DNA of 64,000 nt, taken from Kaistia terrae. GTDB taxonomy: Bacteria; Pseudomonadota; Alphaproteobacteria; Rhizobiales; Kaistiaceae. This document shows positions 33,846-54,037 of the stretch, one piece after another. The notes under the pieces were generated by a model. It was not told where the DNA came from and made no database searches. It was given only the letters and a program-made list of their open reading frames with translations. The stretch lies in assembly GCF_026344005.1 (NCBI RefSeq), contig NZ_JAPKNH010000007.1, forward strand, positions 186,001 to 250,000. Direction: 5' to 3'. Numbering within the stretch: the first letter of the stretch is position 1; each line of letters starts with the position of its first letter. The position numbers and the translations under genes are program-made.

Positions 33846-33957
33846 ATTCGCGCGAGCGAAGCCTCGAAAGGAGATCTAGCGAGGCACACAGGGGCGAGAG
33901 GCGTGTTCCCTGAACCCTCCTTCGAGGCCCGGCTCCGCCGGGCACCTCAGGATGATG
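33846..33957. repeat. Intergenic repeat family C, degenerate pair (copy C2)
   Basis: The right end CTCCTTCGAGGCCCGGCTCC, GCCGGGCACCTCAGGATGAT, G matches copy C1. The left arm (GAGCGAAGCCTCGAAAGGAG) is eroded and lacks the terminal CATCATCCTGAGG. It lies between the convergent MalG-like and ligD genes and reaches close to the ligD stop. Confidence 0.6.
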
Positions 33958-36592
33958 AGCGAACTTTGCCCTTCTTCCCAGCCGCCGCGCCAAATTCCAG
34001 CGGCTTGGCCGCCTTGCGGAAATCAGCCCAAGGATCGACGCCGAGCGAGGCGAGCCGGGTCGGCAAATTAAGGACTGTGAAGTAGTTGGGACCGACGCCA
34101 GGACTCAGTTCGTCCCAGGCGAGAGGCGCGGAAACCGGAGCACCGGCCCGGGCGCGCGTCGAATACGGCGCCACCGCCGTCTGGCCACGTTGGTTTCGCA
34201 GATAGTCGATCAGGATTTTGCCGGGCCGCTTCGCCTTGCTGATCGTCGCGACGTAGTGGTCGGGACTGTCTGAAGCCATCGCGTCGGCGAGCCCCTTGGT
34301 AAAAGCCTTGATCTCAGGCCATTCCGCCTTCGGCGTCAGCGGCGAAACGACATGCAGCCCCTTGCCGCCCGACGTCTTGACGAAGGCGGCGAGCCCGGCG
34401 TCCTCCAGCCGTTGCCGAACTTCCTGCGCCGCGTCGATCACCGTCTGCCAATCGACACCCTCGCCGGGGTCCAGATCCATGATGATCATGTCCGGCTTTT
34501 CCCAGGCATCGATCGTCGAGCCCCAGGGGTGGATCTCGAGCACGGCCGATTGCACCAGCGCGATCAACCCGTCGAGATTCTCGATGCTGATCAGTTGTTC
34601 CACCGCATCCGTCGAAGGATCGTCGACCAGCACGATCGCCTCGTTCAGGCCCTTCCAGGCGTTCTTCTGGAAAAACTGTTCGCCGGTGATTCCGCTCGGA
34701 CAGCGCAATAACGACAGCGGCCGATGCGTGATGAACGGCGCGATATGCGGCCATATCTCGGCATAGTAGTCGGCAAGCCCCTGCTTGGTGACGCCGGCAT
34801 CCGGCCAATAGATCCGGTCGGGATGCGTCAGCTTGACGGTGGAGTTAGGCTCCACCTTGAGCCCCCGTTTCCTCGACGGTTTCGCTTCCATGGTGGGCGC
34901 CTCCCGTATGATCTCGCTGGCCGGCTTGTCTTCGCGCAGCCCCCGGAACGAAGCATGGCGGAGATGACCGTCCGCCGTCCAGGCGCGGAACTCCACCTCG
35001 GCCACCAGTTCGGGCCGGACAAAGCGAACCTGCCGCCTTTCCTCCGCCGTCAGCGGCTTTTCAAACGGACTTTCACTCACCCGCATGCGCTCCAGCGTCT
35101 GGAACAGGTCTTCCGCCAGCCGCGCGGAAAACCCGGTGCCGACACGACCGACATGCTTCAACGCGCCGTCCTCCTGCACGCCGAGCACCAGCGAACCGAT
35201 GGCCCGGCGCGAGGTCGAGGAAGGCACATAGCCACCGATGACGAATTCCTGCCGATCGGAGCTTTTCGCCTTCAGCCAGCTTTTGTTGCGGCCGGATCGA
35301 TAGGGAGAATCCAGAACCTTCGAGACGATGCCCTCAAGCCCAAGCCGCTTGGCATGGCGAAAGACGACCTCGCCGTCTTCTTCGAAGTGCTGGCTGACGC
35401 GGAGGAGCGGCGCTCCATCCGCCACGATCTGCGCCAGGACCTGCTTGCGCTCGGAAAGTGGCAGTTCACGAAGGTCATAGCCATCGAGATAGAGCAGATC
35501 GAAGACGTAGAAGGCGAAGCGATCGGAACGCCCCTCGCTCAGATCCGCCTGCAGGGCCGAAAAATCCGACGCCCCACTCGCTGTCTCGACCACGAGTTCG
35601 CCGTCGATCAGCGCCGTGCCGATGGGCAGCGCCTGCAACGCACCGACGATCTCCTTGCCGAACTTTTTGGTCCAGTCGAGACCGGTGCGGGTCAGAAGCT
35701 TTACACGCCCGGCCGCGACATGCGCCTGCAGGCGATAGCCGTCGAACTTTATCTCATGGATCCAGCGCTCGCCGGCGGGCGGCGCGTCCGTGAGCGTCGC
35801 CAGCGCGGGCTCGACGAAAGCCGGTTGCGGGCCCTTCGTCGCGCCCTTCAGTTTCGCGGGATCAGGCAACGGCGGAGACGGCGCCGCCTCGATAGTCGGC
35901 TCCGGCTTGTCGGTGACCTTTACTTTGGCCGCCGACTTGGCGACTGGCTTGGCCTTCGGAATCTTGCCGGTTTTGGACGACCAGCCCGGCGCCTCGTTCT
36001 CGACATCGGCGATGGCGCGGCCGGTCTTCACCGAATCCGGCATTTCCTCGAGGATATCCGGCGCGCCGGACGAGCGGGCTTCCTCATCCTCGGCCTTGAT
36101 CAGCAGCCAGTTCTCGCGCTTTTCGCGTGGGCGCCCGTGCATCTTCACCAGATGCCAGCGGCCATGCAGCTTCTCTCCCTTCAGTTCGAATTCGAGATGG
36201 CCCTTGGCATAGCCCTTGTGCGGGTCCCCGACCGGCTCCCAGACGCCGCGATCCCAAACGATGACCGTGCCGCCGCCATACTCGCCCTTGGGAATGGTGC
36301 CTTCGAAGCCGCCATATTCAAGCGGGTGGTCCTCGACATGCACAGCGAGGCGCTTCTCTTCAGGATCGAGACTCGGCCCCCGCGTCACGGCCCAGCTTTT
36401 CAGGACGCCATCCATCTCGAGCCGGAAGTCGTAGTGCAGGCGGGTCGCATCGTGTTTCTGGATGACAAAGCTGGGCCCGGCCTTTTTGGCGACTTTCGCA
36501 GACCTGGTCGCCTTGATCGTTTTGGCGCCGGCTGGCTCCGGCGTCGTCTTGAAGTCGCGCTTGCTGCGATAGGCTTCGAGCGGCGCGGCCAT
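33947..36592 (-). CDS. ligD: Multidomain NHEJ DNA ligase D (phosphoesterase-ligase-polymerase)
   Basis: An 881-residue LigD. Domains in order: 3'-phosphoesterase (about 30-190; HDATRLHYDFRLEMDG, GTIPKGEYGGGTVIVWD), ATP-dependent ligase (about 265-560; EIKFDGYR with the adenylated Lys282, EGIVSKVLDSPYRSGR) and archaeo-eukaryotic primase-like polymerase (about 590-870; IYWPDAGVTKQGLADYYAEI, IIMDLDPGEGVDW with the metal-binding Asp pair, FVKTSGGKGLHV). It processes and seals double-strand breaks with Ku. It begins one base after the ku stop codon, a tight operon. A lysine/proline-rich linker joins PE and ligase domains. Confidence 0.96.
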   Translation of the reverse strand: MAAPLEAYRSKRDFKTTPEPAGAKTIKATRSAKVAKKAGPSFVIQKHDATRLHYDFRLEMDGVLKSWAVTRGPSLDPEEKRLAVHVEDHPLEYGGFEGTIPKGEYGGGTVIVWDRGVWEPVGDPHKGYAKGHLEFELKGEKLHGRWHLVKMHGRPREKRENWLLIKAEDEEARSSGAPDILEEMPDSVKTGRAIADVENEAPGWSSKTGKIPKAKPVAKSAAKVKVTDKPEPTIEAAPSPPLPDPAKLKGATKGPQPAFVEPALATLTDAPPAGERWIHEIKFDGYRLQAHVAAGRVKLLTRTGLDWTKKFGKEIVGALQALPIGTALIDGELVVETASGASDFSALQADLSEGRSDRFAFYVFDLLYLDGYDLRELPLSERKQVLAQIVADGAPLLRVSQHFEEDGEVVFRHAKRLGLEGIVSKVLDSPYRSGRNKSWLKAKSSDRQEFVIGGYVPSSTSRRAIGSLVLGVQEDGALKHVGRVGTGFSARLAEDLFQTLERMRVSESPFEKPLTAEERRQVRFVRPELVAEVEFRAWTADGHLRHASFRGLREDKPASEIIREAPTMEAKPSRKRGLKVEPNSTVKLTHPDRIYWPDAGVTKQGLADYYAEIWPHIAPFITHRPLSLLRCPSGITGEQFFQKNAWKGLNEAIVLVDDPSTDAVEQLISIENLDGLIALVQSAVLEIHPWGSTIDAWEKPDMIIMDLDPGEGVDWQTVIDAAQEVRQRLEDAGLAAFVKTSGGKGLHVVSPLTPKAEWPEIKAFTKGLADAMASDSPDHYVATISKAKRPGKILIDYLRNQRGQTAVAPYSTRARAGAPVSAPLAWDELSPGVGPNYFTVLNLPTRLASLGVDPWADFRKAAKPLEFGAAAGKKGKVRSSS

Positions 36593-36593
36593 A

Positions 36594-37454
36594 TCAGCTT
36601 GCCTTGCGCCGTGGCACTACCGGCTTCGGATCAGACTTGGCAACCTTCTTGGGCGCCGCCCTCTTGTCGCCTGCCGCCTTCATCGCCCCGGCGCTTTCGC
36701 GCAACGCCGCCATCAGGTCGACCACCTTGTCGGTCTTGCGCGGCGGTGGCGGTGCGAAAGTCTTGCCCTCCAGCTTCGCCTTGACGAGATCGGCGAGCGC
36801 CGCTTCATAGCGGTCGTCGAAAGCCGCCGGATCGAATGTCCCGCGCTTGGTCTGGATGATGTGCTGCGCCAGCTCCAGCATCTCGCCTTCGATCTTCAGC
36901 TTCGGAATACCATCGAAGGCTTCCCTAGCGGGGCGGACCGCATAGTCGAAGCTCAGCGTCGTGGCGACAAGGCCATCGCCTTCGGCGCGGATCAGAACGC
37001 TGCGCATCCGGCGGAACAGCACTGCGCGGGCGATGGCTGCCGCATGGCTCTTGCGCATGCCCTCGCGGATCAGCCCGAACGCCTCTTCCGCCGCCTTGTC
37101 GCTCGGCGTCAGGTAGTAGGGACGGTCGAAGAACACGTCGTCGACCTCGTCGCTGCGGACGAACGCCTCCACCGCCAGCGTCTTGTCGCTTTCCGGCGTG
37201 GCGGCGGCGATCTCTTCCGGATCGATCTCGACATATTCGCCGGCGGCGATCTCGTAGCCCTTGATCTGGTCCTCGGTTTCAACCGGCTTGCCGGTATCCT
37301 GATCAACATAGTGCCGGCGGACCCGGTTGCCGGTGGCGCGGTTCAGCGTGTGGAAGGTGATGCGATCCGACGTCGAGGCGGCCGTGTGCAGCGCCACGGG
37401 GCAGACAATTTCGGCGACCTTGAGAAAGCCCTTCCAAACTGCCCTTGGAGCCAT
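36594..37454 (-). CDS. ku: Ku homodimeric DNA end-binding protein, first copy
   Basis: A 286-residue bacterial Ku: MAPRAVWKGFLKVAEIVCPV, the conserved TFHTLNRATGNRVRRHYVDQ segment, then DEVDDVFFDRPYYLTP and the bridge/pillar core. The C-terminal tail is lysine- and proline-rich (KKVAKSDPKPVVPRRKAS), as in Ku proteins with DNA- or LigD-contacting extensions. The start at 37454 is the family start; frames extend upstream to 37679 without conservation. It is directly upstream of ligD, so the two are co-expressed. Confidence 0.95.
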   Translation of the reverse strand: MAPRAVWKGFLKVAEIVCPVALHTAASTSDRITFHTLNRATGNRVRRHYVDQDTGKPVETEDQIKGYEIAAGEYVEIDPEEIAAATPESDKTLAVEAFVRSDEVDDVFFDRPYYLTPSDKAAEEAFGLIREGMRKSHAAAIARAVLFRRMRSVLIRAEGDGLVATTLSFDYAVRPAREAFDGIPKLKIEGEMLELAQHIIQTKRGTFDPAAFDDRYEAALADLVKAKLEGKTFAPPPPRKTDKVVDLMAALRESAGAMKAAGDKRAAPKKVAKSDPKPVVPRRKAS

Positions 37455-37608: not shown

Positions 37609-39870
37609 CTAGACGAACGGCGTTTCGTCCAGGAAGCGCTCCAGCACGTTCCAGGTGATGCGCGAGACGTTGTTGTCATAGTCGTTGTGCAGCAGCGAGC
37701 CGCACCAGGCGATGGAAGACGTAGCGAACAGCGCGCCGCCCGAGGGCGTCTCGCCGAAGGCCAGATCGGCGTGGACGCGCTCGTTCTGGTCGCCGCCGAG
37801 ATTGGGCGGCACGACGCCGAATTCCTCGTTGACCAGCATCATCATGGCGCTGTGACCATCCGACGAGGCGAGCCGCAGCATGTTGGGCGGACCGCCGAGA
37901 TTTTGGGAGATGCAATCGAGCTCGATGCCAGCCGCACCACCGCCAACCAGGCCGAAATCGCCGATGATCTCGTCCGGCACATCCTTGAAGATGAACGCCG
38001 CACGGGGATTATCCGCGTCGGGCGCGCGCCGGTAGAAGGTCGAAACATCAAAGCCCTGGGCGATGAAGCCGACGCCGGCCATGACGTTGGGCGCGCGGCC
38101 GATGCGGCGCCAGAGGCCGCCGAACTCGCCATTGAACGACTGGTAATATTCGCCGGGCTCGGCCGCCCAGGTGCGGATGCCATCCTCGGCGCGGCGCACC
38201 TCGATAACGCCGGGCTCGGTCTTGTGGAAGCCGATGCGCCAGTACCAGCCATTGCCGCCCATATACATCAGCCGGCCGCCGCGATCGATCCACGCCTTCA
38301 TACCATCCCACATTGCCGTCGAATGATATTCTGGATGGGTGCCGGTGAGAATGACGCGGTAGTCGGCGAGAAGGTCGTAGCCTTCCTCGTGCAGGTCCTC
38401 GTCGGTGATCAGGTCGTAGTCGACGCCCTTGTGGTCGAGCCAGTCGAACAGATGCGTATCGGCATTGTACTGGTAGAGCGCCGAGCCGGGGCCGCCGAGC
38501 CAGGAATGATAGCGCGGCGAGAAGTTCAAATTCGGCCGCAGCCGGCTCGAATAGCAGACGCCCGAGCCATCGGCATGGGTGTCGTATTGCGAGCCGCCAA
38601 GCTCGGGGTGGTCGTACATGTAGAGATCGGCATGGCCGAAGGTGAGAAGCCGGCCCATCTGCCGCTCGGCGCCCCGCGCCGTAATGTGTTCGGCGTGGTT
38701 GCAATAGGAGAGATAGGACATGGTCGGGGCCAGCACGAGGACGGACGGGCGCTTGCCGCGCTTGGCCTTGTCGCGCGGCGGGCGGACGAAGAACGGAATG
38801 TAGGTCTCGCGCGTCGCGGTTTCGTCGCTGTCGCCGGCTGAGGCGTGCAATGCATAGGCGCCGCTCTTCAGATCGTCGGGGATCGTCAGCGAGACCGAGG
38901 TCTCCCAGCCCGCGTCATAAATGTCGTCATGGTGGAAATGCACCGCGCCGTAATGCTCGGGCTTTCGCGGCCAGGCCTGCTCCTCGCCCGTCCAGTTATG
39001 CCCCTTCATGCCGCGCGCCGGCATTTGCATCAGCTTGCCATGCCGGCCGAACGGGCCGATATCGACGGCATCGACGCTCTCGATCTCGCGGGAGAAATCC
39101 CACTGCGCGATCCGCGCCGTCTGCACATCGCGCGGAGCGATGCCGGCGAGCAGGCTGTCATGATCGGCATGGCTGCGAATGCCGGAGAGCAGGATCGGGC
39201 CGTCGATCTTGCCGTCGAAGTGCCGGCCGATGGTGCCGTCCGCTTCCGGGCGACCGGCAAGATAGAACGGCAGTGCCGACGCCTTGACGCCGAGCCGGAT
39301 GCGGCCGCGGAACTGGCCGTGATCCCGGATCACGGCGACCGGGATCAAGGGGCGCTGGTCGAGCGTGACCTCGCCGCTGGCCGGGTCGAAGGTCACGGCG
39401 AGCTGATACCAATGTCGTTCCAGCATGGCGTGTTCGACGCGCACCGTTTCCGTCTCGCCCGAGCCATCGCCGATCGTCAGCGAAAGCCGGCCGTCATCGC
39501 CGATGCTGATCTGGAAGCCGGCCTGGGTGGCCGCATCCCATTGCGCGGCGATCACCTGTTCGTCGCGCGTCGGCATTGTCGGCCAGACGAAGCCGAGAAA
39601 GGAGAAGGGCTGCGCGGCAACGGCCGGCATGTCGGCGGCAATCATGTAGGAGCCGGCGTCGATGCGCTGCGGCTTGCCGGCATGGATGCCGTCGATTTCG
39701 GTCGGAATGTGCGGAAACTTCAGGCCGGGACCGGCCGGATTGCAGTCGCCGTTGACGACGCGGACCAGCCGGGCCTCAAACGTCTCCCCCTCTTCTAGCG
39801 AAAGCTTGAAGGCGATCTCCTCGCCAGGGGCGACGCTGTAGCGCTCGGGATAGCCGACGATCTTGAGCAT
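37609..39870 (-). CDS. N,N-dimethylformamidase-like large (beta) subunit
   Basis: A 753-residue protein matching the large subunit of N,N-dimethylformamidase (about 762). The N-terminal part includes a LamG-like beta-sandwich (about 110-270; AMLERHWYQLAVTFDPASGE). The C-terminal part is a glutamine-amidotransferase-like fold with SVLVLAPTMSYLSYCNHAEH, HADLYMYDHPELGGSQYD and LTGTHPEYHSTAMWDGMKAW. The known enzyme uses a mononuclear iron held by two tyrosines and one carboxylate; Glu514 here (HPEYHS) is the likely carboxylate, and Tyr386/389 with Tyr417/419/429 are candidate ligands. It would hydrolyse an N-substituted formamide or related amide. It follows the small subunit by 70 bases. Confidence 0.85.
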   Translation of the reverse strand: MLKIVGYPERYSVAPGEEIAFKLSLEEGETFEARLVRVVNGDCNPAGPGLKFPHIPTEIDGIHAGKPQRIDAGSYMIAADMPAVAAQPFSFLGFVWPTMPTRDEQVIAAQWDAATQAGFQISIGDDGRLSLTIGDGSGETETVRVEHAMLERHWYQLAVTFDPASGEVTLDQRPLIPVAVIRDHGQFRGRIRLGVKASALPFYLAGRPEADGTIGRHFDGKIDGPILLSGIRSHADHDSLLAGIAPRDVQTARIAQWDFSREIESVDAVDIGPFGRHGKLMQMPARGMKGHNWTGEEQAWPRKPEHYGAVHFHHDDIYDAGWETSVSLTIPDDLKSGAYALHASAGDSDETATRETYIPFFVRPPRDKAKRGKRPSVLVLAPTMSYLSYCNHAEHITARGAERQMGRLLTFGHADLYMYDHPELGGSQYDTHADGSGVCYSSRLRPNLNFSPRYHSWLGGPGSALYQYNADTHLFDWLDHKGVDYDLITDEDLHEEGYDLLADYRVILTGTHPEYHSTAMWDGMKAWIDRGGRLMYMGGNGWYWRIGFHKTEPGVIEVRRAEDGIRTWAAEPGEYYQSFNGEFGGLWRRIGRAPNVMAGVGFIAQGFDVSTFYRRAPDADNPRAAFIFKDVPDEIIGDFGLVGGGAAGIELDCISQNLGGPPNMLRLASSDGHSAMMMLVNEEFGVVPPNLGGDQNERVHADLAFGETPSGGALFATSSIAWCGSLLHNDYDNNVSRITWNVLERFLDETPFV

Positions 39871-39940
39871 GGAATATCATCCAGATTGGCGCATGAAACG
39901 GGATCGCCGTGGCGGCGACCTGCTGTTCGAACGGGAAGGC

Positions 39941-40261
39941 TCAGTCGCGGAGCGGCCGATTGATGCTTTCGCCTGTCAGAAGGCGCCAGCGGCGACGGAA
40001 GACTTCCCATTCCGCCTCTTCGATGTCGGTGAAGACGGGCCCGTCCTCGATCGCGATCGGCTCGCGCCGATCGACCGGCATCAGGCCCAGCACCCATTCC
40101 TCGAACGGGCGCTTGCAGACCAGCACGACCTGCTTGCCCGAAGGGTCGTGGCGCATCGTATTGAGGAGCCGTTGCAGGCCGGGGCTATGAGCACCGATCG
40201 GCTTCTGGCGGAATTCCTCGATGTAGTGTCGATCTATCTCTGGATCGATCTTGTAGACCAT
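39941..40261 (-). CDS. N,N-dimethylformamidase-like small (alpha) subunit
   Basis: A 106-residue helical protein (MVYKIDPEIDRHYIEEFRQK, then PGLQRLLNTMRHDPSGKQVV, LVCKRPFEEWVLGLMP). Position immediately before the large-subunit gene and the sequence pattern fit the dimethylformamidase light chain, which is about 130 residues in characterised enzymes; this one is shorter. A strong GGGGGAG lies upstream of the ATG at 40261. A longer overlapping frame reads back into the ROK gene on another frame and is not used. It starts 19 bases after the ROK stop codon, so ROK, alpha and beta form one operon. Confidence 0.78.
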   Translation of the reverse strand: MVYKIDPEIDRHYIEEFRQKPIGAHSPGLQRLLNTMRHDPSGKQVVLVCKRPFEEWVLGLMPVDRREPIAIEDGPVFTDIEEAEWEVFRRRWRLLTGESINRPLRD

Positions 40262-40280
40262 GAAGCACTCCCCCTGAACT

Positions 40281-41534
40281 CTACAACGGAAACTGAAGCA
40301 ACTCCGACAAGACAAGACCCGCCGCGCCCAGAAGCGCCGCGCGATCTTCCGTCTCCCCAATCGCGAAGCGGATCTCCCCCCCGCTGCGCGATGGTACGAG
40401 CGCGCGAACGTGTCCGGCAATCGCCTCGGCCATGATTTCCCCGCCGCCGACGACATCGCCATGCAGAATGTAGAAATTCGGCGCCACGGTCTGCTGCAGA
40501 TTGGCAATCCCCACGGCGACATTGCGCGCATAGAGATCGAGCAGGCTTGCCGCCCCCGGCACGCCGGCGCCTGCCAGCGCCACGAGGCGGGCCGAATTGA
40601 TCGCGTCCGGCGCGTCGATGCCGATCGCGCGGGCCTGACGGCGCAGCCAGCCGACCGTGGCGATCGTCTCCCAGCAACCGCGCCTGCCGCACGCGCAGAG
40701 ATCGCCATCGACCTGCACAAAGGTGTGGCCAAGCTCGCCGCCGGCGCCGCTCTGGCCGCGATAGAGATGGCCGCCGAGATAAAGCGCCCCGCCCAGAACC
40801 TCTCCGGTATAGACGGCGGCGAAATTCTGCATGCCGCGTCCCTTGCCGAACCAGCGGTCGCCAACGAGCAGTGCGCGCGGATGATGGTCGAGCAGGGCCG
40901 GCAGGCCGAAGCGCCGGGTCAGCATGTCGCCAAGCTCAAAGCCGTTCATCACCGGCGCGAGATTGACGGCGATGACGGCGCGGCGATCCGTGTCGACCAT
41001 GCCGCCAACGGCGACGCCGATGCCGAGCGGCTCGCGATGCGCGGCGGAAAGGGTTTTTTTCGTCGCCTGCTCGATGGCGCGCGTCACCTCGGCGAGGGTC
41101 GGGTTTTCGGCGGGAAAGCGCACGCTTTCCTCGGCCGATATCGTGCCGGCGAGCGTCACGAGGCAGGTCTGGACGGCGTCGGGCATCAGCATCATGCCGC
41201 AGATCGGCCGCGCCTCCGGCGAGAACCACAGCGGACGCGCCGGCTTGCCGCCCGCCTCGCTCGGCCGGATCGGCTTGCCCTCGACGAGAACCTGCTGGTC
41301 GAGCAGAGGCTGCACGATCCCGGAAATGGTGGTGCGATTGACGCCGGCGAGCCGCGCCAGCTCCGCCCGGCTCGTCGGGCCCAGATCAAACAAGGTCTGC
41401 AGCACGCGGCCACGATTGGCCGAGCCGACCATCGAAGAGGAAAGCAGCGCACGCCCCGGCCGGGCGGTGCGGACATCGGCGGGAATGTCTTCCTCGTCCA
41501 TAGGCCAACGCTGCGGGGAAGTTTCGCGCTCCAA
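40281..41534 (-). CDS. ROK-family transcriptional regulator
   Basis: A 417-residue ROK repressor. The N-terminal winged helix contains NRGRVLQTLFDLGPTSRAEL and ARLAGVNRTTISGIVQPLLD. The ROK domain has the PLGIGVAVGGMVDTD phosphate-region segment, SGAGGELGHTFVQVDGD and the zinc motif CACGRRGCWE. ROK regulators usually sense sugars or sugar phosphates. Start: TTG at 41534 with GAGGA 5 bases upstream; the ATG at 41501 (MDEEDIP) is the alternative and lacks a ribosome site. It is co-directional with the dimethylformamidase-like genes and divergent from a CUT1 importer, so it probably controls both. Confidence 0.88.
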   Translation of the reverse strand: MERETSPQRWPMDEEDIPADVRTARPGRALLSSSMVGSANRGRVLQTLFDLGPTSRAELARLAGVNRTTISGIVQPLLDQQVLVEGKPIRPSEAGGKPARPLWFSPEARPICGMMLMPDAVQTCLVTLAGTISAEESVRFPAENPTLAEVTRAIEQATKKTLSAAHREPLGIGVAVGGMVDTDRRAVIAVNLAPVMNGFELGDMLTRRFGLPALLDHHPRALLVGDRWFGKGRGMQNFAAVYTGEVLGGALYLGGHLYRGQSGAGGELGHTFVQVDGDLCACGRRGCWETIATVGWLRRQARAIGIDAPDAINSARLVALAGAGVPGAASLLDLYARNVAVGIANLQQTVAPNFYILHGDVVGGGEIMAEAIAGHVRALVPSRSGGEIRFAIGETEDRAALLGAAGLVLSELLQFPL

Positions 41535-41833
41535 TCTGTCCTCGTCCTGCTTGCGGACGGCCAGGCGGCCGGTCTTGCGCTTCCTATACGGAATGTCGGC
41601 TGGGTGCGCGCGCTACCAGTCCGACCTCCGAATTAATTCTTAGCCGAACATCGGGTCGTTGACGAGTTAAAATGTTTGTGCGAGCCTCATACTAACAAGA
41701 CGATCGAGACGCCACGACAAGCTTCGTCGGGAACCGAAGCTGTTGTTCGCACCCATAATTGCGTTCGTCATTGAAGAACGAGCTCCAGGCATAGATCTGG
41801 CGCCGAAAAACCTTCCAAGAGGAGAGTGGGAAC
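41535..41833. other. Divergent regulatory region ROK / CUT1 importer
   Basis: About 300 bases, AT-rich for this genome. It contains the palindrome at 41630-41639 and a TTGACG at 41655 followed by the AT-rich AGTTAAAATGTTT. The importer's ribosome site (GAGGAGAGTGGGA) lies at its right end. No ORF seen. Confidence 0.5.
41630..41639. promoter_or_regulatory. Candidate ROK operator palindrome
   Basis: GAATTAATTC is a perfect 10-bp palindrome in the divergent region. Known ROK operators are AT-rich inverted repeats with TTA/TAA elements, so this is a reasonable but unproven site. Confidence 0.3.
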
Positions 41834-43282
41834 ATGAAGTCTGGATTCGATTTCAACCTTTCCCGCCGCGGCCTGCTGAAAAGCGGCGTGGCGCTGGCCG
41901 GAACCGCGGCTATCGGCGGAGGATTAATGCCCCGCCGAGCCATGGCGGCCGACAAGACTTTGCGGGTTTTGCTTGCCGGCGACCCCTTCTACTATGCAAT
42001 CGAGGGCCTGAAGGGCCAGTTCGAGCAGGAAACCGGCATCAAGCTGGCAATCGAGGCGATTTCGCTTGAAGCGCTGCAGGCTCGCCTGACCTCATCCTTC
42101 ATCAGCAACGAGCCGGACGCGGACGTCATCTCCGTCGACCAGATGTGGCTTGGTCAGTATCTCGAGAGCAAGTGGATCACGCCGCTCAACGAATTCATCA
42201 AGGCGGATAGCGACACCAACATCGAGGACTACATTCCCGAAGTCCTCTATTCGCTGAATACGTGGCGCGGCCAGGTCGGAACGCTGCCCGTCGCGGCCTA
42301 TGGCCAGATGGTTCTCTACCGCAAGGACTTTGCCGAAAAGGCCGGCATTGCCGTGCCGGAAGACGGCAGCTGGACCTGGGAACAGTATCTCGCCGCCGTC
42401 CAGAAGATGCACGGCCAGGATTTCGACGGCCAGAAGATGAGTGGCACCGTGCTGGCCGGGCAGCAGCCAGCGCCCGTCGTCCACATGTATTCGCAGCTCG
42501 CCGCCAGCATGGGCACGCGCTGGTTCAAGGACTTCCCGGCCGGCACCCCCTGGGATTTCCAGCCGACCATCAACAGCCCGGAAAATCTCGCCGCGCTGAA
42601 GATCTTCTCCGAGCTCTACAAGAATGCTCCGGCTGAATCGGTCGGTTACAACTGGTTCGACGCTGGCATGCGCTTCGCCAAGGGCGATGTCGGCATGTTC
42701 TACTGGTGGACGCCTTATGCCTACCTTTGCAAGAAGGACGGCTATATGAGCGGCAAGGACTCAGTCGTCGCCGACAAGCTCGGCATGGCCCGCCTGCCCA
42801 AGGGTCCGGGTGAACAGGTGGTTTCGCTCGGCGGCCACAGCCTCGGCATCACTGCCAACTCGGCCAACCGCGATGCTTCCTGGCAGTTCGTCAAATGGGC
42901 GACCTCCGCCAAGACGCAAAAGGCGATGGGCCTCTACGACAAGTATGGCCACCAGTTCTCCGACTTCGCCCGCAAGTCGCTCTACAGCGATGCGGAACTC
43001 TTGAAGATCTATCCGCATCTGACCGCCCAACTCGGCGATCTCGAGCGCGGCAACGGCAAGATCGTCCGTCCGCCGGCCCCGGTCTACACGACGCTCGAGG
43101 GCATTTACGGCCTCAACCTCAACAAGGTTCTGACAGGGCAACTGACGCCGGAAGCCTGCCTCTCGGATACCTCGACCTATTTCGAGACGATCCTGAAGGG
43201 CAACTTCCTCATCCCGTATCAGCAGGCGTCCTATGCCGACACGCTGGACGCGACCAAGAGCCTGCTGAAGTCGCTTAGCTGA
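41834..43282 (+). CDS. CUT1-type carbohydrate ABC importer substrate-binding protein, second cluster
   Basis: A 482-residue family 1 solute-binding protein. It has a twin-arginine-type signal (LSRRGLLKSGVALAGTAAIG) with cleavage near RAMA|ADK. Conserved segments include EQETGIKLAIEAISLEALQA, DVISVDQMWLGQYLESKWIT and GMFYWWTPYAYL. It begins the plus-strand operon divergent from the ROK regulator; a strong hairpin at 43292-43329 follows. Ligand unknown; a glycoside or amide-bearing sugar would suit the linked genes. Confidence 0.91.
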   Translation: MKSGFDFNLSRRGLLKSGVALAGTAAIGGGLMPRRAMAADKTLRVLLAGDPFYYAIEGLKGQFEQETGIKLAIEAISLEALQARLTSSFISNEPDADVISVDQMWLGQYLESKWITPLNEFIKADSDTNIEDYIPEVLYSLNTWRGQVGTLPVAAYGQMVLYRKDFAEKAGIAVPEDGSWTWEQYLAAVQKMHGQDFDGQKMSGTVLAGQQPAPVVHMYSQLAASMGTRWFKDFPAGTPWDFQPTINSPENLAALKIFSELYKNAPAESVGYNWFDAGMRFAKGDVGMFYWWTPYAYLCKKDGYMSGKDSVVADKLGMARLPKGPGEQVVSLGGHSLGITANSANRDASWQFVKWATSAKTQKAMGLYDKYGHQFSDFARKSLYSDAELLKIYPHLTAQLGDLERGNGKIVRPPAPVYTTLEGIYGLNLNKVLTGQLTPEACLSDTSTYFETILKGNFLIPYQQASYADTLDATKSLLKSLS

Positions 43283-43291
43283 GTTTGGCTA

Positions 43292-43329
43292 GGAGCCGAC
43301 GTCTTCATATCGAAGAGATCGTCGGCTCC
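43292..43329 (+). terminator. Long stem-loop after the second CUT1 binding-protein gene
   Basis: GGAGCCGACG pairs with CGTCGGCTCC, extended inward by TCTTC/GAAGA around ATATC. No T-run follows, so mRNA stabilisation or partial attenuation between binding protein and permeases is more likely than full termination. Confidence 0.6.
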
Positions 43330-43432
43330 GGGCCACGACTAGAGCAAAGAGTCCCAAGATCTTTGCTCGACTAGAGCGGACGGGGTGCTCCCTCCCCGCC
43401 CCGTTCGCTCTCTCTTTTCAATTGGAGCGTCC

Positions 43433-44347
43433 ATGTCCGCAGTTTCCATCGCCGCGCCGCCTCGGGCGCGACGGCGCTTGCCCGACTATACGCCGTGGCT
43501 TCTCATCAGCCCGTCGATCCTGCTGCTGGTGGCGCTGATCGCGTTCCCGCTGCTGTTCGCGCTGAAAAACAGCTTCTACTTCTGGAACCTGCAGATGGGC
43601 CCTGCGCCGATGGGTTTCATCGGCCTCGACAACTACCGCATGGCGCTGTCGAACGGCATGTTCCTGGAATCGCTGCGGACGACGCTGCTGATGACGGTGG
43701 TCGGCACGACCGTGCAGTTCAGCCTCGGCCTCGCCATCGCGCTGCTGCTGTTGCGCCGGTTGCACGGCATCAAGATGACCCGCGTGCTGCTGATCATGCC
43801 GACGACCATCGCGCCGATCGTCGTCGGGTTCCTGTTCCGCTACATGTACGATCCGAATGGCGGGCTGATCCCCTGGCTGCTGACCTCGGCCGGCATTCCG
43901 CTTCCCGCCGCCGGCCTGCTCGGCTCGCCGTCGACGGCGCTCTGGGCAGTGTTGTTCGCCGATATCTGGCAGTGGACGCCGTTCTTCGCGATCGTCCTCT
44001 ATGCAGCGCTGCTGGCTGTTCCGGGCGAGATCGTCGAGGCGGCGAAGATCGACGGCGTCTCGCCCTGGAAGCAATTGCTTCACATCAAGCTGCCGCTGAT
44101 CCGCAAGACGGCGCTGATCATCGTCATGCTGCGCTTCATGCAGATCTTCAATACTTTCGATCTCGTCGTCGTGCTGACCAAGGGAGGTCCCGGAACGTCG
44201 AGCCGGACACTTGGCTACAGCCTTTATCAAGCCGGCATGGTCGATTTCAACATAGGCGTTTCCAGCGCCATGACGTGGATGATGGTGATCATCGTCAACG
44301 CGATCATCGGCCTGTTTGTCTTCTTCGCGTTCAAGGATTGGGATTGA
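43433..44347 (+). CDS. CUT1 carbohydrate ABC importer permease, MalF-like, second cluster
   Basis: A 304-residue permease with six helices; start MSAVSIAAPPRARRRLPDYT, first helix PWLLISPSILLLVALIAFPL. The EAA loop is EIVEAAKIDGVSPWKQLLHI, and LTKGGPGTSSRTLGYSLYQA is a conserved MalF-family loop. It is 150 bases after the binding-protein gene and 1 base before the next permease. No ATPase gene in the cluster. Confidence 0.94.
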   Translation: MSAVSIAAPPRARRRLPDYTPWLLISPSILLLVALIAFPLLFALKNSFYFWNLQMGPAPMGFIGLDNYRMALSNGMFLESLRTTLLMTVVGTTVQFSLGLAIALLLLRRLHGIKMTRVLLIMPTTIAPIVVGFLFRYMYDPNGGLIPWLLTSAGIPLPAAGLLGSPSTALWAVLFADIWQWTPFFAIVLYAALLAVPGEIVEAAKIDGVSPWKQLLHIKLPLIRKTALIIVMLRFMQIFNTFDLVVVLTKGGPGTSSRTLGYSLYQAGMVDFNIGVSSAMTWMMVIIVNAIIGLFVFFAFKDWD

Positions 44348-44348
44348 G

Positions 44349-45182
44349 ATGGAAGGCTCGGAGAGCGTCGCGGGCCGTCTGCTCGGCTATGCAGCCATGG
44401 TGCTGTTGCTGCTGGTATTCATCGGCCCAATCATCTGGTTCGTGCTGCTGGCGATCCGGCCGGCCGAAACCTACTTTTCCATGCCGCCCGTTCTCTCGTT
44501 CAAGCCGAACTGGGAATCGATCCGCTACACCTTCTTCGATCCCGGCAACAACGCGCCGCAGCTGCTGAACAGCCTGATCGTCGCCGTCGGGGCGGTGGCG
44601 CTGAACCTGCCGTTCTCGTTTCCGGCCGCCTATGCGCTGTCGCGCTACAAGATCCGCGGCCGCAAGCACATCATGCTCTGGTATCTCGGCCTGCTGATGG
44701 CGCCGCCGGTCGCCTTTCTCATCCCCTACTCGATCCTCGCCAGCCTGGCGGGCGTCAAGGGCACCTACTTCTCGATGATCCTGATCTCGCAGACTCTCAC
44801 CATTCCGTTCTCGGTCTGGCTGATGCGCTCGTTCATCGACGAGGTGCCGATCGAGATCGAGGAAGCGGCCCGCATCGACGGCGCCGGCACGACGACGATC
44901 CTGCTGAAATTCATCCTGCCGATGGTGATGCCGGGCCTGATCGTCACCTCGATGTTCGCCTTCGTGTTCTCGTGGAACAACGCGGCCTTCCCGCTGGTTC
45001 TCGCCAATCGCAGCACGACGACGCTGCCGGTCGGCACGCTGCAATATTTCGGCACCGCCGGCGTCACCTGGGGCTTCATCGCCTCCGCCGCCGTCGCCGC
45101 CATGATCCCCCCCATGCTGATCTTCCTCGTGCTCGACCGCTATGTCGTCCGAGGCCTGACTTTTGGTTCCGTGAAAGGATGA
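44349..45182 (+). CDS. CUT1 carbohydrate ABC importer permease, MalG-like, second cluster
   Basis: A 277-residue permease (MEGSESVAGRLLGYAAMVLL start). The EAA loop EIEEAARIDGAGTTTILLKF is followed by ILPMVMPGLIVTSMFAFVFS, and the C-terminus is LDRYVVRGLTFGSVKG as in MalG proteins. It is followed within 7 bases by the oxidoreductase gene. Confidence 0.94.
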   Translation: MEGSESVAGRLLGYAAMVLLLLVFIGPIIWFVLLAIRPAETYFSMPPVLSFKPNWESIRYTFFDPGNNAPQLLNSLIVAVGAVALNLPFSFPAAYALSRYKIRGRKHIMLWYLGLLMAPPVAFLIPYSILASLAGVKGTYFSMILISQTLTIPFSVWLMRSFIDEVPIEIEEAARIDGAGTTTILLKFILPMVMPGLIVTSMFAFVFSWNNAAFPLVLANRSTTTLPVGTLQYFGTAGVTWGFIASAAVAAMIPPMLIFLVLDRYVVRGLTFGSVKG

Positions 45183-45189
45183 AACGGAA

Positions 45190-46236
45190 ATGACGTCATC
45201 GCGTAAAATTCGCTTCGGCGTAGTCGGGGCGGGCCTCTGGGGCTCGTTCCATTGCAAGACCCTGAGCGCCATCGACGGCGCCGAGCTCGCCGCCGTCTGC
45301 GATCTCGACCCGGCGCGCGTCGCCGACATGCAGAAGCAGTTCGGCGCGGCCAAGGCCTATACCGACTATCGCGAGCTGTTGGCTGACCCCGACATCGACG
45401 CCGTCACTGTGGCGACGCCTGATTTCGCCCATGGCGACATCGTGCTGGCGGCGATCCAGGCCGGCAAGCATGTGATGAGCGAGAAGCCGCTGGCGACGAC
45501 GCTCGCCGAAGCAGAGGCGATCGCCGATGCCGCGGATCGCAGCGGTCGCAAGGTGATGGTCGATTTCCACAATCGCGTCAGCCCGGCCATCGTCGCCCTT
45601 CGCGATACGATTGCCGCCGGCGACATCGGCTTGCCGCTACATGGCGCCGCGCGCCTCTCCAACACGCTGTTCGTGCCGTTCGAGCTGCTTTCCTGGGCCA
45701 GCAAATCGTCGGCGCTGTGGTTCCTCGGCAGCCACTCCGTCGATGCCTTGCGCTTTGTCATGGGTTCCGAGGTCAAGCGCGTCCAGGCCATGGTACGCCG
45801 CGGCTTCCTCGCCTCGCAGGGCGTCGACACCGCCGACGTGCATGTCGCCGTGCTGGAGTTCGAGAATGGCGCGGTGATCTCGCTGGAAAACAGCTGGGTG
45901 CTGCCGAACGACATGCCCAACATCGTCGATTTCAAGATCGAGATCGTCGGCGAGAAGGGGCTGGTCCAGGTAGAACCGACCCAGGCAGGGCCTTTCCGGA
46001 AGTTCACCGGACCCGGTCTTCGCACGGCCGACCTCTTCGGCGTCACGCCGGCTGCCGGTGGTCGCATCGGTGGCTTCGTCATGGAAGCGATTGCCCGCTT
46101 CATTGACGCGGTCGCGACCGATGCGCCGGTCATTGCCGACGCGCGCGACGGCCTGCAAGTGACGCGCGTACTGGCAGCGATCGAACAGGCAGCCGCGTCC
46201 GGCACGACCATCACTCTGTCCGACGGCGTCGCCTGA
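45190..46236 (+). CDS. Gfo/Idh/MocA-family NAD(P)-dependent oxidoreductase
   Basis: A 348-residue sugar/cyclitol dehydrogenase-like enzyme. The N-terminal Rossmann fold has FGVVGAGLWGSFHCKTLSAI. The family's EKP motif is HVMSEKPLATTLAEAEAIAD, with the lysine likely near the active site. The C-terminal beta-sheet domain begins around residue 125 and includes WFLGSHSVDALRFVMGSEVK, where the histidine is the usual second catalytic candidate. It closes the CUT1 operon and presumably oxidises the imported sugar or inositol-like compound. Confidence 0.92.
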   Translation: MTSSRKIRFGVVGAGLWGSFHCKTLSAIDGAELAAVCDLDPARVADMQKQFGAAKAYTDYRELLADPDIDAVTVATPDFAHGDIVLAAIQAGKHVMSEKPLATTLAEAEAIADAADRSGRKVMVDFHNRVSPAIVALRDTIAAGDIGLPLHGAARLSNTLFVPFELLSWASKSSALWFLGSHSVDALRFVMGSEVKRVQAMVRRGFLASQGVDTADVHVAVLEFENGAVISLENSWVLPNDMPNIVDFKIEIVGEKGLVQVEPTQAGPFRKFTGPGLRTADLFGVTPAAGGRIGGFVMEAIARFIDAVATDAPVIADARDGLQVTRVLAAIEQAAASGTTITLSDGVA

Positions 46237-46294: not shown

Positions 46295-47095
46295 TCAACG
46301 TCCTTTGGGCTTGGTCTCCGAGGCGATGCTCTTGCGCAGGGCGTCGAGGATGCTGACGACATTGCCCTTCGTCTCCGGCGCAGCCTTGCGCGCGGCCGGC
46401 TTCTTGCCCTTTTTCTTGGCGGCGATGATCTCCAAAAGCCGATCCTGCACCGGGTCGGTGGCCATGGCGGGCGACCACGGCTTGGTGCGCTCCTGGATCA
46501 GGGTCTGCATCATCTCCATCAATTTCGGATCAGGCTTCGCCTCGCCAAGACCCTCGAAATAATTGGTCTCGTCGCGGATCTCGTCGCCATAGTGCAGCGT
46601 CCAAAGCTCGATGCCGTTTTCACGCGGCTTCAGCATCACGGCACGCTCGCGTCGATAGAGCACAAGCCTTGAAATCCCGACCGTCTCGGTTGCCGCCATC
46701 GCGTCGCGAATGACCGAAAAGGCCTCTTCGCCGACTGGATCGTCCGGCACCAGATAATGCGGCTTGTCGTACCAGATCCAACCGATGTCATCGCGCGGCA
46801 CGAACATCTCGATGTCGATAGTGCGCGTGCTCTCGAGGGCGACGGAATCGATCTCGTCATCCTCGAGCATCAAATACTCATCCTCGCCGCGCTGGTAGCC
46901 CTTGACCTGCTCGTCGTCCTCGACGGCCTCGCCGGTCGCGCTGTCGACATACTCGCTCACCACCCGGTTGCCGGTGGCGCGGTTCAGCGTGTGAAAGCGG
47001 ACCTTCTCGTTGTCGGTCGTGGCAGGGATCATCGCCACCGGGCACGTCACGAGCGAGAGCTTCAGATAGCCCTTCCAGAACGAACGCGGCGCCAT
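46295..47095 (-). CDS. Ku homodimeric DNA end-binding protein, second copy
   Basis: A 266-residue Ku: MAPRSFWKGYLKLSLVTCPV, VRFHTLNRATGNRVVSEYVD and DDIGWIWYDKPHYLVPDDPV. It is clearly homologous to the first Ku (36594-37454) but diverged, for example in RFHTLNRATGNRVVSEYVD against TFHTLNRATGNRVRRHYVD. It ends in a lysine-rich tail (AAKKKGKKPAARKAAPETKG). It stands alone, without a ligase gene nearby. Rhizobial genomes commonly carry several ku genes with different partners or conditions. Start 47095 is the family start. Confidence 0.94.
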   Translation of the reverse strand: MAPRSFWKGYLKLSLVTCPVAMIPATTDNEKVRFHTLNRATGNRVVSEYVDSATGEAVEDDEQVKGYQRGEDEYLMLEDDEIDSVALESTRTIDIEMFVPRDDIGWIWYDKPHYLVPDDPVGEEAFSVIRDAMAATETVGISRLVLYRRERAVMLKPRENGIELWTLHYGDEIRDETNYFEGLGEAKPDPKLMEMMQTLIQERTKPWSPAMATDPVQDRLLEIIAAKKKGKKPAARKAAPETKGNVVSILDALRKSIASETKPKGR

Positions 47096-47171: not shown

Positions 47172-47624
47172 TCAGGCCGTCTCTTCGCAGAGTGCCGTAT
47201 AGACCTGCTCCGGCAGGCCTGCCTGGCGGATCGACTTCACGACCTTGGAGGAGCGCAGCTTGCGGGCCATGCTGGCGAGCACGTTCAGATAGCCGCCGGA
47301 GTTCTGGCCGGGCATCAGGAGCAGGCAGACGATGTCGACCGGGATATCGTCGATCGATTCAAAATCGATCGGCTTCTTCAGCCGGGCCACCATGCCGAAC
47401 GGGACTTCGAGTCCCGGAACCGGCGCATGCGGGATCGCAACGCCCTCGCCGACACCGGTCGAACCCAGCTTTTCGCGATTGTAGATGGCCTGGAAGATGT
47501 CGTCGGCCGGAAGGCCCAACATCAGCGCGGCCTGTTCCGACAGGCTGCGCAGCAGCTTCGTCTTGGAAGGCGCCGGCAAATCGATCATCACGCTTTCGGG
47601 CTTGATGAATTCGGAAAGATTCAT
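47172..47624 (-). CDS. PTS EIIA-type regulatory protein (PtsN/EIIA-Ntr-like)
   Basis: A 150-residue EIIA-2-fold protein: MNLSEFIKPESVMIDLPAPS, KTKLLRSLSEQAALMLGLPA, the phospho-acceptor motif GEGVAIPHAPVPGL with His66, and DIVCLLLMPGQNSGGYLNVL. No EIIB or EIIC domain is attached, so it is regulatory. It lies 63 bases after kdpE in the same direction. EIIA-Ntr is known in Escherichia coli to bind KdpD and the K+ transporter TrkA, which makes this link meaningful. It may be a second copy rather than the rpoN-linked ptsN. Start 47624 is the family start. Confidence 0.88.
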   Translation of the reverse strand: MNLSEFIKPESVMIDLPAPSKTKLLRSLSEQAALMLGLPADDIFQAIYNREKLGSTGVGEGVAIPHAPVPGLEVPFGMVARLKKPIDFESIDDIPVDIVCLLLMPGQNSGGYLNVLASMARKLRSSKVVKSIRQAGLPEQVYTALCEETA

Positions 47625-47687
47625 AGTCTCACTCGCATCGGCGCCACGTAGCGCATCAGATCCAGGCACAACCCGTGCCAATTTCGT

Positions 47688-48376
<689 letters not shown>

Positions 48377-48380
<4 letters not shown>

Positions 48381-51094
48381 GACAGCTCTTCCAGCGTGGC
48401 GATGTCGGCGGACACCGGCATCCTGATCGTGAACACCGCGCCGGAACGATCCGCTCGGTTTTCGGCCTGGATCGTGCCGCCCATCGCCTCGACAAAGCCG
48501 CGGCAGATCGAAAGCCCGAGCCCGGTTCCAGCCCGCACCTGATCGGACTTGCGCACGCGATAGAAGGTATCGAAGACGCGTTCAAGGTCGGCGGGCGGAA
48601 TGCCCGGCCCCTCATCCATCACCTGCAGCAGCACAAAACCGCCATCGGTCCAACCCTGGATCCGGACTGTCGTGTCGTCCGGCGCATATTTCGCGGCATT
48701 GTCGAACAGGTTGAACAACACCTGTTCGAACAGAACAGGATCCAGCCGCACCATCGGCAAATCGGCAGGGATCGCCACCTGGACCTCGTGTTGCGCCAGG
48801 ATCTTGGTGGCGCGGCGAAGCGCCGTGCCGACGACATCGCCGACATAGTGGGGCGAGGCATTCGGCTCCATCGCGCCGGATTCGATCCGCGTCATGTCGA
48901 GTAGATTGGCGATGAAACGGTGCAGCCGCTCCGACTCGTCAATGACGGTCGAGAGCAGTTCGACACGATCTTCCTCGGGGATCGCCTTCGGATAATCGCG
49001 CAGTGCCTCTGCCGCGCCCATGATGGCGGCGAGCGGCGTCTTCAGGTCATGCGAGATTGAGGTCAACAGCGCCGAGCGCAACCGATCCGCCTCGGCAGCG
49101 AGCCTTGCCCTGTCGACATCGGCGACCAGCTCGATCCGCTCGATGGCGAGCGCCGCCTGGTCGGCGAGCGAGTCGAACAGCCGCTGCTCCTCCGGCGTCA
49201 GCAGCGGGCCCTGCCCGTCATCGTCGAGGCCGACGACGCCGACGGCTGTGCGTCCGGTGCGCAACGGCAGATAGAGTCGCCTGGCGCCGGGCAGCGTATC
49301 GGCGCCGCGACCGGCCGGGCGATTATGCTCCCAGGCCCAGCGCGCGGCCGCGATGTCGGCGTCGACCAGCGTATCGTCCGGTGGGTACCCGGCGCGAACC
49401 GCGATCGTGCCGTTTTCCGGCAGCAGCACGACGACACGCACCTTCAGCATCGAGGCGATCTGGTAGACGGTCGCCCAGAGCACGTCCTCGAGCGTACCGG
49501 CGCCGGCCAGCTTCTTGCTGAACAGATACAGCCCCTCGGTCGTGCGGGCGCGCTGACGCGCGGCGGCGGCCTGTCGCTGGACGCGGGCGGTCAAATTGCT
49601 GGCGATGACCGCGACGCCGAGGAAGAAAACGAAGGCGATGACGCTTTCCGGGTCGCCTATGTCGAGCGTGTAGAGCGGCGGCAGGAAGAAGAAGTTGAAG
49701 GCGAGCGCCGATACCACCGAGGTGAACAAGGCCGGCCACAGCCCGGCCGTGACGGCCGATGCCAGCACCGCCATCAGGAAGACCAGCGCGAGATTGCGCA
49801 CATCGAGCACGTGCAGCAACAGCATGGCGAAGGCGAGCGCGATGCCAACATAGAAGACACCGAGCGCATAGGGCCGCGGCTTGAACCGGGAAGGCGTGGC
49901 CAGCGCCACCTCGCGCGCCGGCGGGGCCTCGCGATCGTCGCCGGAAATGACATGGACGCTGATGTCGCCGGCAAGCCGGATCAAATCATGCGAGACAGAA
50001 CCTTCGACCGTCTCGCGCCAGCGCGACTTGGTCGGCTTGCCAACGATGATGTGCGTAGCGTTGGAGGCCATCGCGTGGCGGACGATGTCGCGCGCCACAT
50101 CCTGGCCCGGCAGCGTGATCGCCTCGCCGCCCAGTTGTTCGGCCAGCCGCAACGTCGCGGCGACACGATCCTTCGCCGCCTCCGGCAATCCGGCCGAACG
50201 CGCCGTCTCGATGTAAAGCGCTGCCCAGGGAGCCCGCAGCCGGTCCGCCTGCCGCCGCGCATAGCGGATGAGCGACGCGCTGCGGGGCTGCTCGTCGATA
50301 CAGACAAGCACGCGGTCGCCCGCCGCCCAGGGGCCTGAGATGGCATGGGCCTGCATGTGGCTGACGAGCTGCTCGTCGACCCGCTGCGCCGTGCGGCGAA
50401 GCGCAAGCTCGCGCAGCGCGGTCAGATTGCCGGGCGAAAAATAGTTCTCGATTGCCCGCTTGGCCGTGCCGGCGAAATAGACCTTGCCCTCGTGCAGGCG
50501 CTTGATCAGGTCGTCCGGCGTCAGGTCGATGACCTCGACGTCATCGGCGCGGTCGATGATCGAATCCGGCACGGTCTCCCGCACCCGGATGCGGGTGATC
50601 TGGGCGACGACGTCGTTCAGGCTTTCGACATGCTGGATGTTGAGAGTCGTGTAGACGTCGATGCCGCGCGCCAGGATCTCCTCGACATCGAGATAGCGCT
50701 TGGGGTGGCGGCTGCCCTCGGCATTGGTATGCGCCAGCTCGTCGACCAGCACCAGCGCCGGCCGCCGCGCGAGGATGGCGTCGATGTCCATCTCTTCGAG
50801 CACCCGGCCGCGATAATCGACGATTCTGCGCGGGATGACTTCAAAACCTTCGACCAGCGCTTGGGTCTCCGCCCGGCCATGCGTCTCGACCACGCCGATG
50901 ACAACGTCGACGCCGTCTGCCTTTCGGGCGCGGCCGGACATCAGCATCTCGTAGGTCTTGCCAACGCCCGGCGCCGCGCCGAGGAATATCTTCAGCCGGC
51001 CGCGCGTCTCGCGTGTCGCGCGCTCCAGCAGGGCGTCCGGCGATGGCCGGCTCGGCGCGTCTCGACTGTCGTCAGGCATCCAATCGTGACCCAT
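48377..51094 (-). CDS. kdpD: Sensor histidine kinase KdpD
   Basis: About 905 residues from this start. Domains: N-terminal KdpD ATP-binding region (GRLKIFLGAAPGVGKTYEML; VLVDELAHTNAEGSRHPKRY), a UspA-like domain (about 235-360), four close transmembrane helices (about 385-480), a GAF domain, the phospho-acceptor helix TSISHDLKTPLAAIMGAAEA and the HATPase (LFDNAAKYAPDD, GTGLGLSICRGFVEAMGG). It senses K+ limitation or ionic stress and phosphorylates KdpE. The start is uncertain: GTG at 51139 (7 bases from the kdpC stop), ATG at 51094 and ATG at 51079 are all possible, none with a good ribosome site. Confidence 0.95.
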
Positions 51095-51145
51095 CTGTCC
51101 AAACGGCCGGAACCGGCGCCAGAGCACAGGTTCCGACACTCCCTG

Positions 51146-51715: not shown

Positions 51716-51726
51716 GGGAATATCCT

Positions 51727-53799: not shown

Positions 53800-53842
53800 A
53801 GGAGACTCCAGCTTGGTGTTCCGGTGACAGGCGGTCCGAGCT

Positions 53843-54028: not shown

Positions 54029-54037
54029 GGTGTCTCC

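Follow-up and report, generated by a model that had tools for sequence, protein, structure and literature searches.

The window analysed here is a 64,000-nucleotide stretch from the genome of the soil bacterium Kaistia terrae (G000:C35:186001-250000; G, L and C labels denote genomes, loci and contigs). It carries the genes for an enzyme of the dimethylformamidase (DMFase) type, with a small (α) and a large (β) subunit, in one unit with a ROK-family transcriptional regulator and divergent from a CUT1-type importer and a Gfo/Idh/MocA dehydrogenase. The reading that we favour, with a probability of a little under 0.6, is that the α-β pair is an iron amidohydrolase which frees the sugar- or polyol-like part of a larger N-substituted amide, and that this compound is imported by the CUT1 system, sensed by the ROK protein and processed by a gene module containing an FGGY kinase. 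The enzyme type is known; its coupling to ROK/CUT1 genes and to an SDR-BtpA-FGGY module appears to be new. Such a coupling was not seen in the open-access literature, which omits most subscription papers. One preprint (PMC13081902) was set aside since it concerns another superfamily.

Members of the DMFase family (PF20254) are α2β2 Fe(III) amidohydrolases. The β subunit of the window (753 aa, 37609-39870, minus strand) is a full-length DMFA2_C protein, matching PF20254 with 300 bits against a cut-off of 27, and also includes a Laminin_G_3 stretch. The nearest named relatives, Kaistia granuli, defluvii and adipata, are 91-92% identical over β. Among solved chains, phmmer gives equal scores to 8huy (515 bits), an N-acetyl-(R)-β-phenylalanine acylase, and to 6lvb (514.8 bits), the DMFase of Paracoccus, the latter match spanning β residues 3-751; identity is 39.8% to the acylase and 41.1%, over 735 columns, to the enzyme of P. 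aminophilus. The iron ligands of the Paracoccus DMFase are Tyr399, Tyr440 and Glu521, and mutants of Tyr440, Glu521, His519, Asn547 or Glu657 are inactive (PMC7686228). In an alignment of 68 β subunits, the ligands correspond to Tyr389, Tyr429 and Glu514 of the window protein, and His519, Asn547 and Glu657 to His512, Asn540 and Glu650. Five of these six site residues are conserved in 68/68 sequences; Asn540 is found in 64, with Asp in the remaining 4. A preliminary description of the stretch, made from its letters alone, had proposed a DMFase-like two-subunit enzyme that retains Glu514 and tyrosines near 386-429 as candidate iron ligands, and both proposals hold. Separately, giant frames of about 1300-2340 aa (in G008:C12, G006:C1, G013:C6, G001:C4 and others) match β weakly, mostly around residues 460-560 near the His-x-Glu motif, and possibly contain a distant DMFA2-like domain.

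The α subunit (106 aa, 39941-40261, minus strand, inside a longer TTG frame at 39941-40864) has no match by sequence alone in Pfam, NCBIfam or the PDB. When ten α relatives were compared by hhalign with DmfA1 encoded on P. aminophilus pAMI2, a match of 92% probability was obtained (E 5e-7, 83 columns). A low-confidence AlphaFold model (pLDDT 63), from which only the top PDB matches were used, has as its best three matches the DMFase small subunits 6lvv_B, 6lvb_B and 6lvd_B (TM 0.40-0.44). One α sequence with masked letters was kept in alignment A1 and left out of A2. Judged from profile and predicted fold, α is a homologue of the DMFase small subunit, encoded beside β. A recognisable α is also present in 27 of 41 loci with distant β subunits (L044-L053, L123-L153).

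Matches to this β at E 0.001, partial ones included, occur in 71 of 385 alphaproteobacterial genomes. In a tree of 69 β subunits, built by a quick method without bootstrap, from which proteins shorter than 650 aa were left out together with L116 (a copy of L034, also omitted from all counts), the window protein falls, as one of 22 rows, on a single branch whose SH-aLRT value is 100. This clade includes proteins from Kaistia, Aestuariivirgaceae, further genomes of the same order, an alphaproteobacterial metagenome-assembled genome and a Vibrio. The Paracoccus DMFase lies outside it and the 8huy acylase belongs to a separate starred group of 8 rows; both are long branches, and the Paracoccus enzyme's own placement is unsure for this reason.

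The clade also differs at a position related to substrate size. Phe693 of the Paracoccus DMFase has been proposed as a constriction that bars larger amides (PMC7686228). The corresponding residue of the window protein is Val686, and among the 22 clade members the position is occupied by Val (17), Pro (4) or Ile (1). It seems very improbable that the window encodes a true dimethylformamidase or an enzyme detoxifying small formamides. The two subunits and the iron site are indeed the same, but the absence of the gate Phe throughout the clade argues against such a function, though Phe is present in only 8 of the other 46 β subunits; besides, the clade does not include the Paracoccus enzyme, and the regulator of the window differs in type from DmfR. 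More generally, the system of the window resembles DmfA1A2 of pAMI2 in its two subunits, the DMFA2_C large subunit, the six site residues and the homologous small subunit. It differs in the gate, in its separate clade and in its ROK regulator, and a CUT1-type importer and sugar-type genes are found only beside the window enzyme. The regulator of the Paracoccus enzyme is assigned to the LuxR family (PMC4543880), in agreement with the earlier statement that it is of another type. The accompanying statement that known relatives act on simple formamides is incomplete, given the equally close acylase.

Gene neighbourhoods separate the clade from other β subunits. The 21 clade loci outside the window were compared with 44 loci carrying more distant β subunits, a non-random set chosen from the upper parts of match lists (4 of them under 15 kb), by counting genes within 9.5 kb of β that matched over more than half of the query at identities of at least 45% (FGGY, BtpA), 55% (SDR), 40% (HAD) or 50% (ROK and the solute-binding protein, SBP). 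The module genes were identified by Pfam and NCBIfam scans of the copies in L034 and by similarity to those. In the clade loci, FGGY was found 13 times, BtpA, ROK and SBP 11 times each, and SDR and HAD 10 times each; none of the six was found in any of the 44 distant loci, whether within 9.5 kb or over the whole stretches. FGGY or ROK plus SBP is present in 20 of the 21 clade loci, the usual companions of the kinase being SDR, DeoR, BtpA/SgcQ and HAD genes. Leaving aside the loci of the Kaistia ROK type, 14 clade loci remain, and the kinase is nearby in 13 of them (the exception being L039); of the 13 clade loci from outside Kaistia, 12 have it nearby. In L034 (Taklimakanibacter) and L118-L120 the two gene sets are joined, in the order SBP, ROK, then SDR, DeoR, BtpA, FGGY, HAD, α and β. 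The Vibrio locus (L037), whose β is 57% identical, has SDR, DeoR, FGGY, HAD, α, β and BtpA, and ABC permease genes lie close by. The comparison shows that the linkage of α-β to these genes has been kept through divergence to 57% identity and through several gene orders; it does not represent 20 independent events. As the loci are related by descent, Fisher p-values for the comparison are not read as probabilities.

Several side observations concern genes adjoining α-β in these loci. A gene for an AAC(3)-IV-like acetyltransferase lies immediately downstream of β in three loci of the Aestuariivirga/Taklimakanibacter type (L033, 11275-12054; L034, 11425-12213; L036, 11275-12054), with 433 bits in L034 against a cut-off of 420. 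In L121 and L122, α-β is followed by MocA and a Ser/Thr dehydratase, and L121 also has a NanE-like epimerase and a ManNAc-kinase-like ROK gene; these neighbours hint at an amino sugar or a hydroxy amino acid. The second α-β copy of G005 (L043, 15343-19539) is accompanied by fructoselysine-6-kinase-like, deglycase-like, 3-hydroxy-D-aspartate-aldolase-like and fuconolactonase-like genes, all below equivalog cut-offs.

The acylase relationship suggests another function, that of an N-acyl (β-)amino acid acylase. Here the release of an amino acid would be the point of the reaction, and the sugar-type genes would either handle the other part of the molecule or be chance neighbours. The N-acetyl-(R)-β-phenylalanine acylase (8huy, 8i59, 8i5a) is a full-length homologue about as close to the window β as the Paracoccus DMFase is, and its name implies that the fold can accept a larger N-acyl substrate. 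An M20 deacylase of the ArgE/DapE type occurs in L039 and L041-L043, the aldolase-like gene in L039 as well as L043, and the dehydratase of L121 scores 431 bits with PRK06110 against 317, with a 96% identical copy in L122. However, 8huy belongs to a different group of the β tree. Moreover, orthologues of the M20, aldolase-like and dehydratase genes were not found in the Kaistia loci of the ROK type or in L033, L034, L036, L037 and L117-L120, where other neighbours are mostly unannotated, whereas FGGY is present in 13 of the 21 clade loci. We consider the acylase function unlikely, and a substrate with a sugar- or polyol-like part remains the preferred explanation.

In the window, ROK, α and β form a single minus-strand unit with gaps of 19 bases (ROK/α) and 70 bases (α/β). 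The opposite, plus-strand unit starts 299 bases from ROK and encodes the binding protein, two permeases and the Gfo/Idh/MocA dehydrogenase. This is the arrangement given in the preliminary description, and the Pfam assignments agree with it. The order is conserved in all 8 β-bearing genomes among 14 Kaistia, and ROK and SBP also accompany α-β in L034 and L118-L120, so that the predicted linkage is found outside the window. The Kaistia SBP occurs in the same 8 genomes as β and additionally in G007, whose contig ends inside ROK.

The ROK regulator (40281-41534, minus strand; 417 aa from a TTG codon, although the gene caller prefers a start at 41501) matches PF00480 with 136 bits. It retains the motifs ELGH and CACGRRGCWE, corresponding to the family signatures ExGH and CxCGxxGCxE. 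In this and in its ROK domain it resembles Mlc and NagC. Near its N-terminus (residues 34-82) there are weak matches of the helix-turn-helix type (HVO_A0261_N 25 bits and MarR 18 bits, both below cut-offs). Unlike Mlc and NagC, it falls far under both NCBIfam equivalog cut-offs, with 110 of 530 bits for Mlc and 78 of 650 bits for NagC, the matches beginning at residues 38 and 43.

The 13 aligned ROK/SBP intergenic regions share one block, which consists of TTGACGA (41659-41665 in the window) followed by a 25-bp dyad, TGTTTGTGCGAGCCTCATACTAACA (41673-41697, no strand), a probable ROK operator. The dyad is symmetric at 18 of 25 positions in the window and at 20 of 25 in L040. A scan allowing up to 2 mismatches found it in 11 of 12 genomes picked for carrying ROK/SBP, once in each except G004, which has a second match with 2 mismatches; the twelfth genome (G642) has a site with 3 mismatches, and a reversed-pattern control gave no match. 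The single site of the window genome at this threshold is the local one. When up to 4 mismatches were allowed over 1.79 Mb, 17 rows resulted, of which 16 fall in the ROK/SBP interval (the L040 site counting twice, once per strand) and one, in L172, falls elsewhere. At the distant FGGY and BtpA genes no dyad was found, either in the genome scan at up to 2 mismatches or in the loci at up to 4. The conservation and position of the dyad fit one local operator for both divergent units.

The plus-strand unit begins with an extracellular SBP (41834-43282; PF01547, SBP_bac_1, 115 bits; nearest solved chain 5iai, 152 bits). It is followed by permease 1 (43385-44347, start possibly at 43478; PF00528; UgpA-like with 116 bits, below cut-off) and permease 2 (44316-45182, start possibly at 44349; PF00528; GlcU- and MalG-like, below cut-offs). 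The CUT1 assignment follows from the combination of an SBP_bac_1 binding protein with two BPD_transp_1 permeases. The last gene (45190-46236) encodes the Gfo/Idh/MocA dehydrogenase (PF01408, 116 bits), which is inositol 2-dehydrogenase-like with 155 bits, below the equivalog cut-off. There is no ATPase gene among the genes at 41834-46236, and ATPase genes elsewhere in the genome were not sought; the importer could borrow a shared ATPase encoded elsewhere.

The window genome also possesses FGGY, SDR and BtpA genes of the kinase module, on other contigs. Its FGGY orthologue (C12:565521-566975; 61% identity, 655 bits, the next kinase scoring 203) adjoins DeoR and SDR genes and, further, MFS, cytosine-deaminase-like amidohydrolase, questin-oxidase-like and FAD-oxidoreductase genes, and its BtpA (C32:141564, 79% identical) adjoins another DeoR. 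The pathway, if there is one, is therefore scattered in this Kaistia. The amidohydrolase and questin-oxidase-like genes lie beside the FGGY/SDR module in three Kaistia (L114, 12442-17478, on C12 of the window genome; L224; L226), joined by the FAD-oxidoreductase, a monooxygenase, in L114 and L224 and not in L226. In Rhizobium leguminosarum (L154) the questin-oxidase and FAD-oxidoreductase orthologues are 62% and 54% identical. It is possible that this set constitutes a ring-opening front end.

Plasmids of R. leguminosarum (pRL10), Salipiger, Labrenzia and Shinella carry SDR-DeoR-BtpA/SgcQ-FGGY(-HAD) modules together with ABC importers. Their proteins resemble those of the Taklimakanibacter module (FGGY 57-64%, BtpA 53-80%, SDR 67-70% identity), but α-β is absent, and no close orthologue of the window SBP is found among their binding proteins. 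A γ-glutamyltransferase gene is found near the modules of R. leguminosarum and related plasmids, in one case with isochorismatase-type hydrolases and an amidohydrolase; amidases lie near the Salipiger module, as the M20 deacylase does in the α-β loci already mentioned. This suggests that the module often meets amides and that the cleaving enzyme is exchangeable. Nothing usable on the function of the SDR-DeoR-BtpA-FGGY module was found in the open-access literature.

A number of observations weigh against a dedicated pathway for a sugar- or polyol-linked amide. The locus counts are not independent, because the clade has one phylogenetic origin, and in L039 both a strong FGGY orthologue and ROK/SBP are lacking. 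Clade β subunits occur in G018 and G022 without this SBP. Conversely, G015, from another genus of the same family, retains ROK, the dyad, SBP, the permeases and MocA and has no match to α, β, FGGY (E 1e-100) or BtpA (1e-40); the importer can thus serve without α-β. FGGY and BtpA are present in 14/14 Kaistia, including the 6 without this β, and so do not track α-β inside the genus. Control of these distant genes by ROK is not obvious, since the scan of the genome at up to 2 mismatches gave no dyad other than the local one. The symmetry of the dyad is itself weaker outside Kaistia (16/25 in L118, 12/25 in L034). In addition, β is absent from the nine FGGY-first loci examined, drawn from the ten genomes that matched apart from the window genome; with the plasmid modules, these indicate that the kinase module works without α-β. 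Finally, no amide-handling neighbour was noted beside the Labrenzia and Shinella modules.

Some of these points would suit another account, in which ROK, the CUT1 importer and MocA take up and oxidise an ordinary sugar and α-β does no more than share the transcript: G015 has ROK/CUT1/MocA alone, and FGGY-module loci without α-β are common. We nevertheless regard it as quite unlikely. Where β is present in Kaistia, α-β accompanies ROK/SBP in 8 of 8 genomes, and across the clade loci ROK/SBP or FGGY stands with α-β in all but one of the 21, across identities of 57-93% and several gene orders. As for the proposal in the preliminary description of a branch acting on sugar-linked or larger amides, the retained ligands and the linkage to ROK/CUT1 or FGGY speak for it, so that two outcomes which that description had named as refuting, a loss of the ligands and an absence of conserved linkage, did not arise; G015, with its ROK/CUT1/MocA set and neither α-β nor kinase module, speaks against it. 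On the whole, the comparative data strengthen the earlier view of an amide hydrolase serving a sugar- or polyol-type pathway.

Under the preferred reading, the following sequence of events can be proposed. From their homology and retained residues, α and β together would be a DMFase-type Fe(III) amidohydrolase located in the cytosol. Its substrate would probably exceed dimethylformamide in size and be an N-substituted amide with a sugar- or polyol-like portion; the CUT1 importer would bring it into the cell, drawing on an ATPase encoded at another locus. The ROK protein, whose sequence retains the family's signature for binding carbohydrate and zinc, may sit on the 25-bp dyad and leave it upon binding an inducer, whereby ROK-α-β and CUT1-MocA would be switched on together. 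By analogy with the mechanism of the Paracoccus enzyme, the amide would be hydrolysed with Fe(III) as Lewis acid and Glu650 as base, assisted by Asn540 and His512. MocA or SDR might then oxidise the polyol or ketose so released, the FGGY kinase would phosphorylate it, and BtpA/SgcQ would process the product.

More tentatively, and with odds that we place somewhat short of even, the clade could be an entry enzyme that cleaves the amide bond in a hitherto undescribed pathway; its substrates would be natural amides of a polyol or ketose, possibly conjugates with amino acids or opened heterocycles. The core of this pathway would be SDR-BtpA/SgcQ-FGGY-HAD, into which different lineages would plug different amide-breaking enzymes (α-β, γ-glutamyltransferase, amidases, isochorismatase-type hydrolases or M20 deacylase). 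Conceivable candidates for the natural compound include pantothenate, formamido sugars, mycothiol, pterins and compounds with a ribityl group (flavins, F420).

Dimethylformamide, on which the enzyme was described, is an industrial solvent introduced in 1893 (PMC7686228). A clade tied to an importer, to a regulator with a visible putative operator and to a kinase module makes the natural role of these iron amidases directly testable, as the SBP and the regulator can report the ligand. If the entry-enzyme pathway exists, iron enzymes of the dimethylformamidase type would acquire a role in nature, and BtpA/SgcQ would have a function in metabolism.

The cluster is surrounded by a locus for non-homologous end joining. 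Ku genes (PF02735) lie at 36594-37454 and 46295-47095, and a long open reading frame at 33947-36592, on the flank of the first, is presumably LigD, a name assigned by position. These genes were rejected as part of the system, as they accompany it in L031, L032, L038, L054 and L055 whereas L035 and L040 lack this linkage. Further along, a potassium-uptake locus on the minus strand (47172-55741) comprises KdpA, a P-type ATPase in the position of KdpB, a KdpD sensor kinase, a response regulator and a protein of the phosphotransferase system EIIA type.

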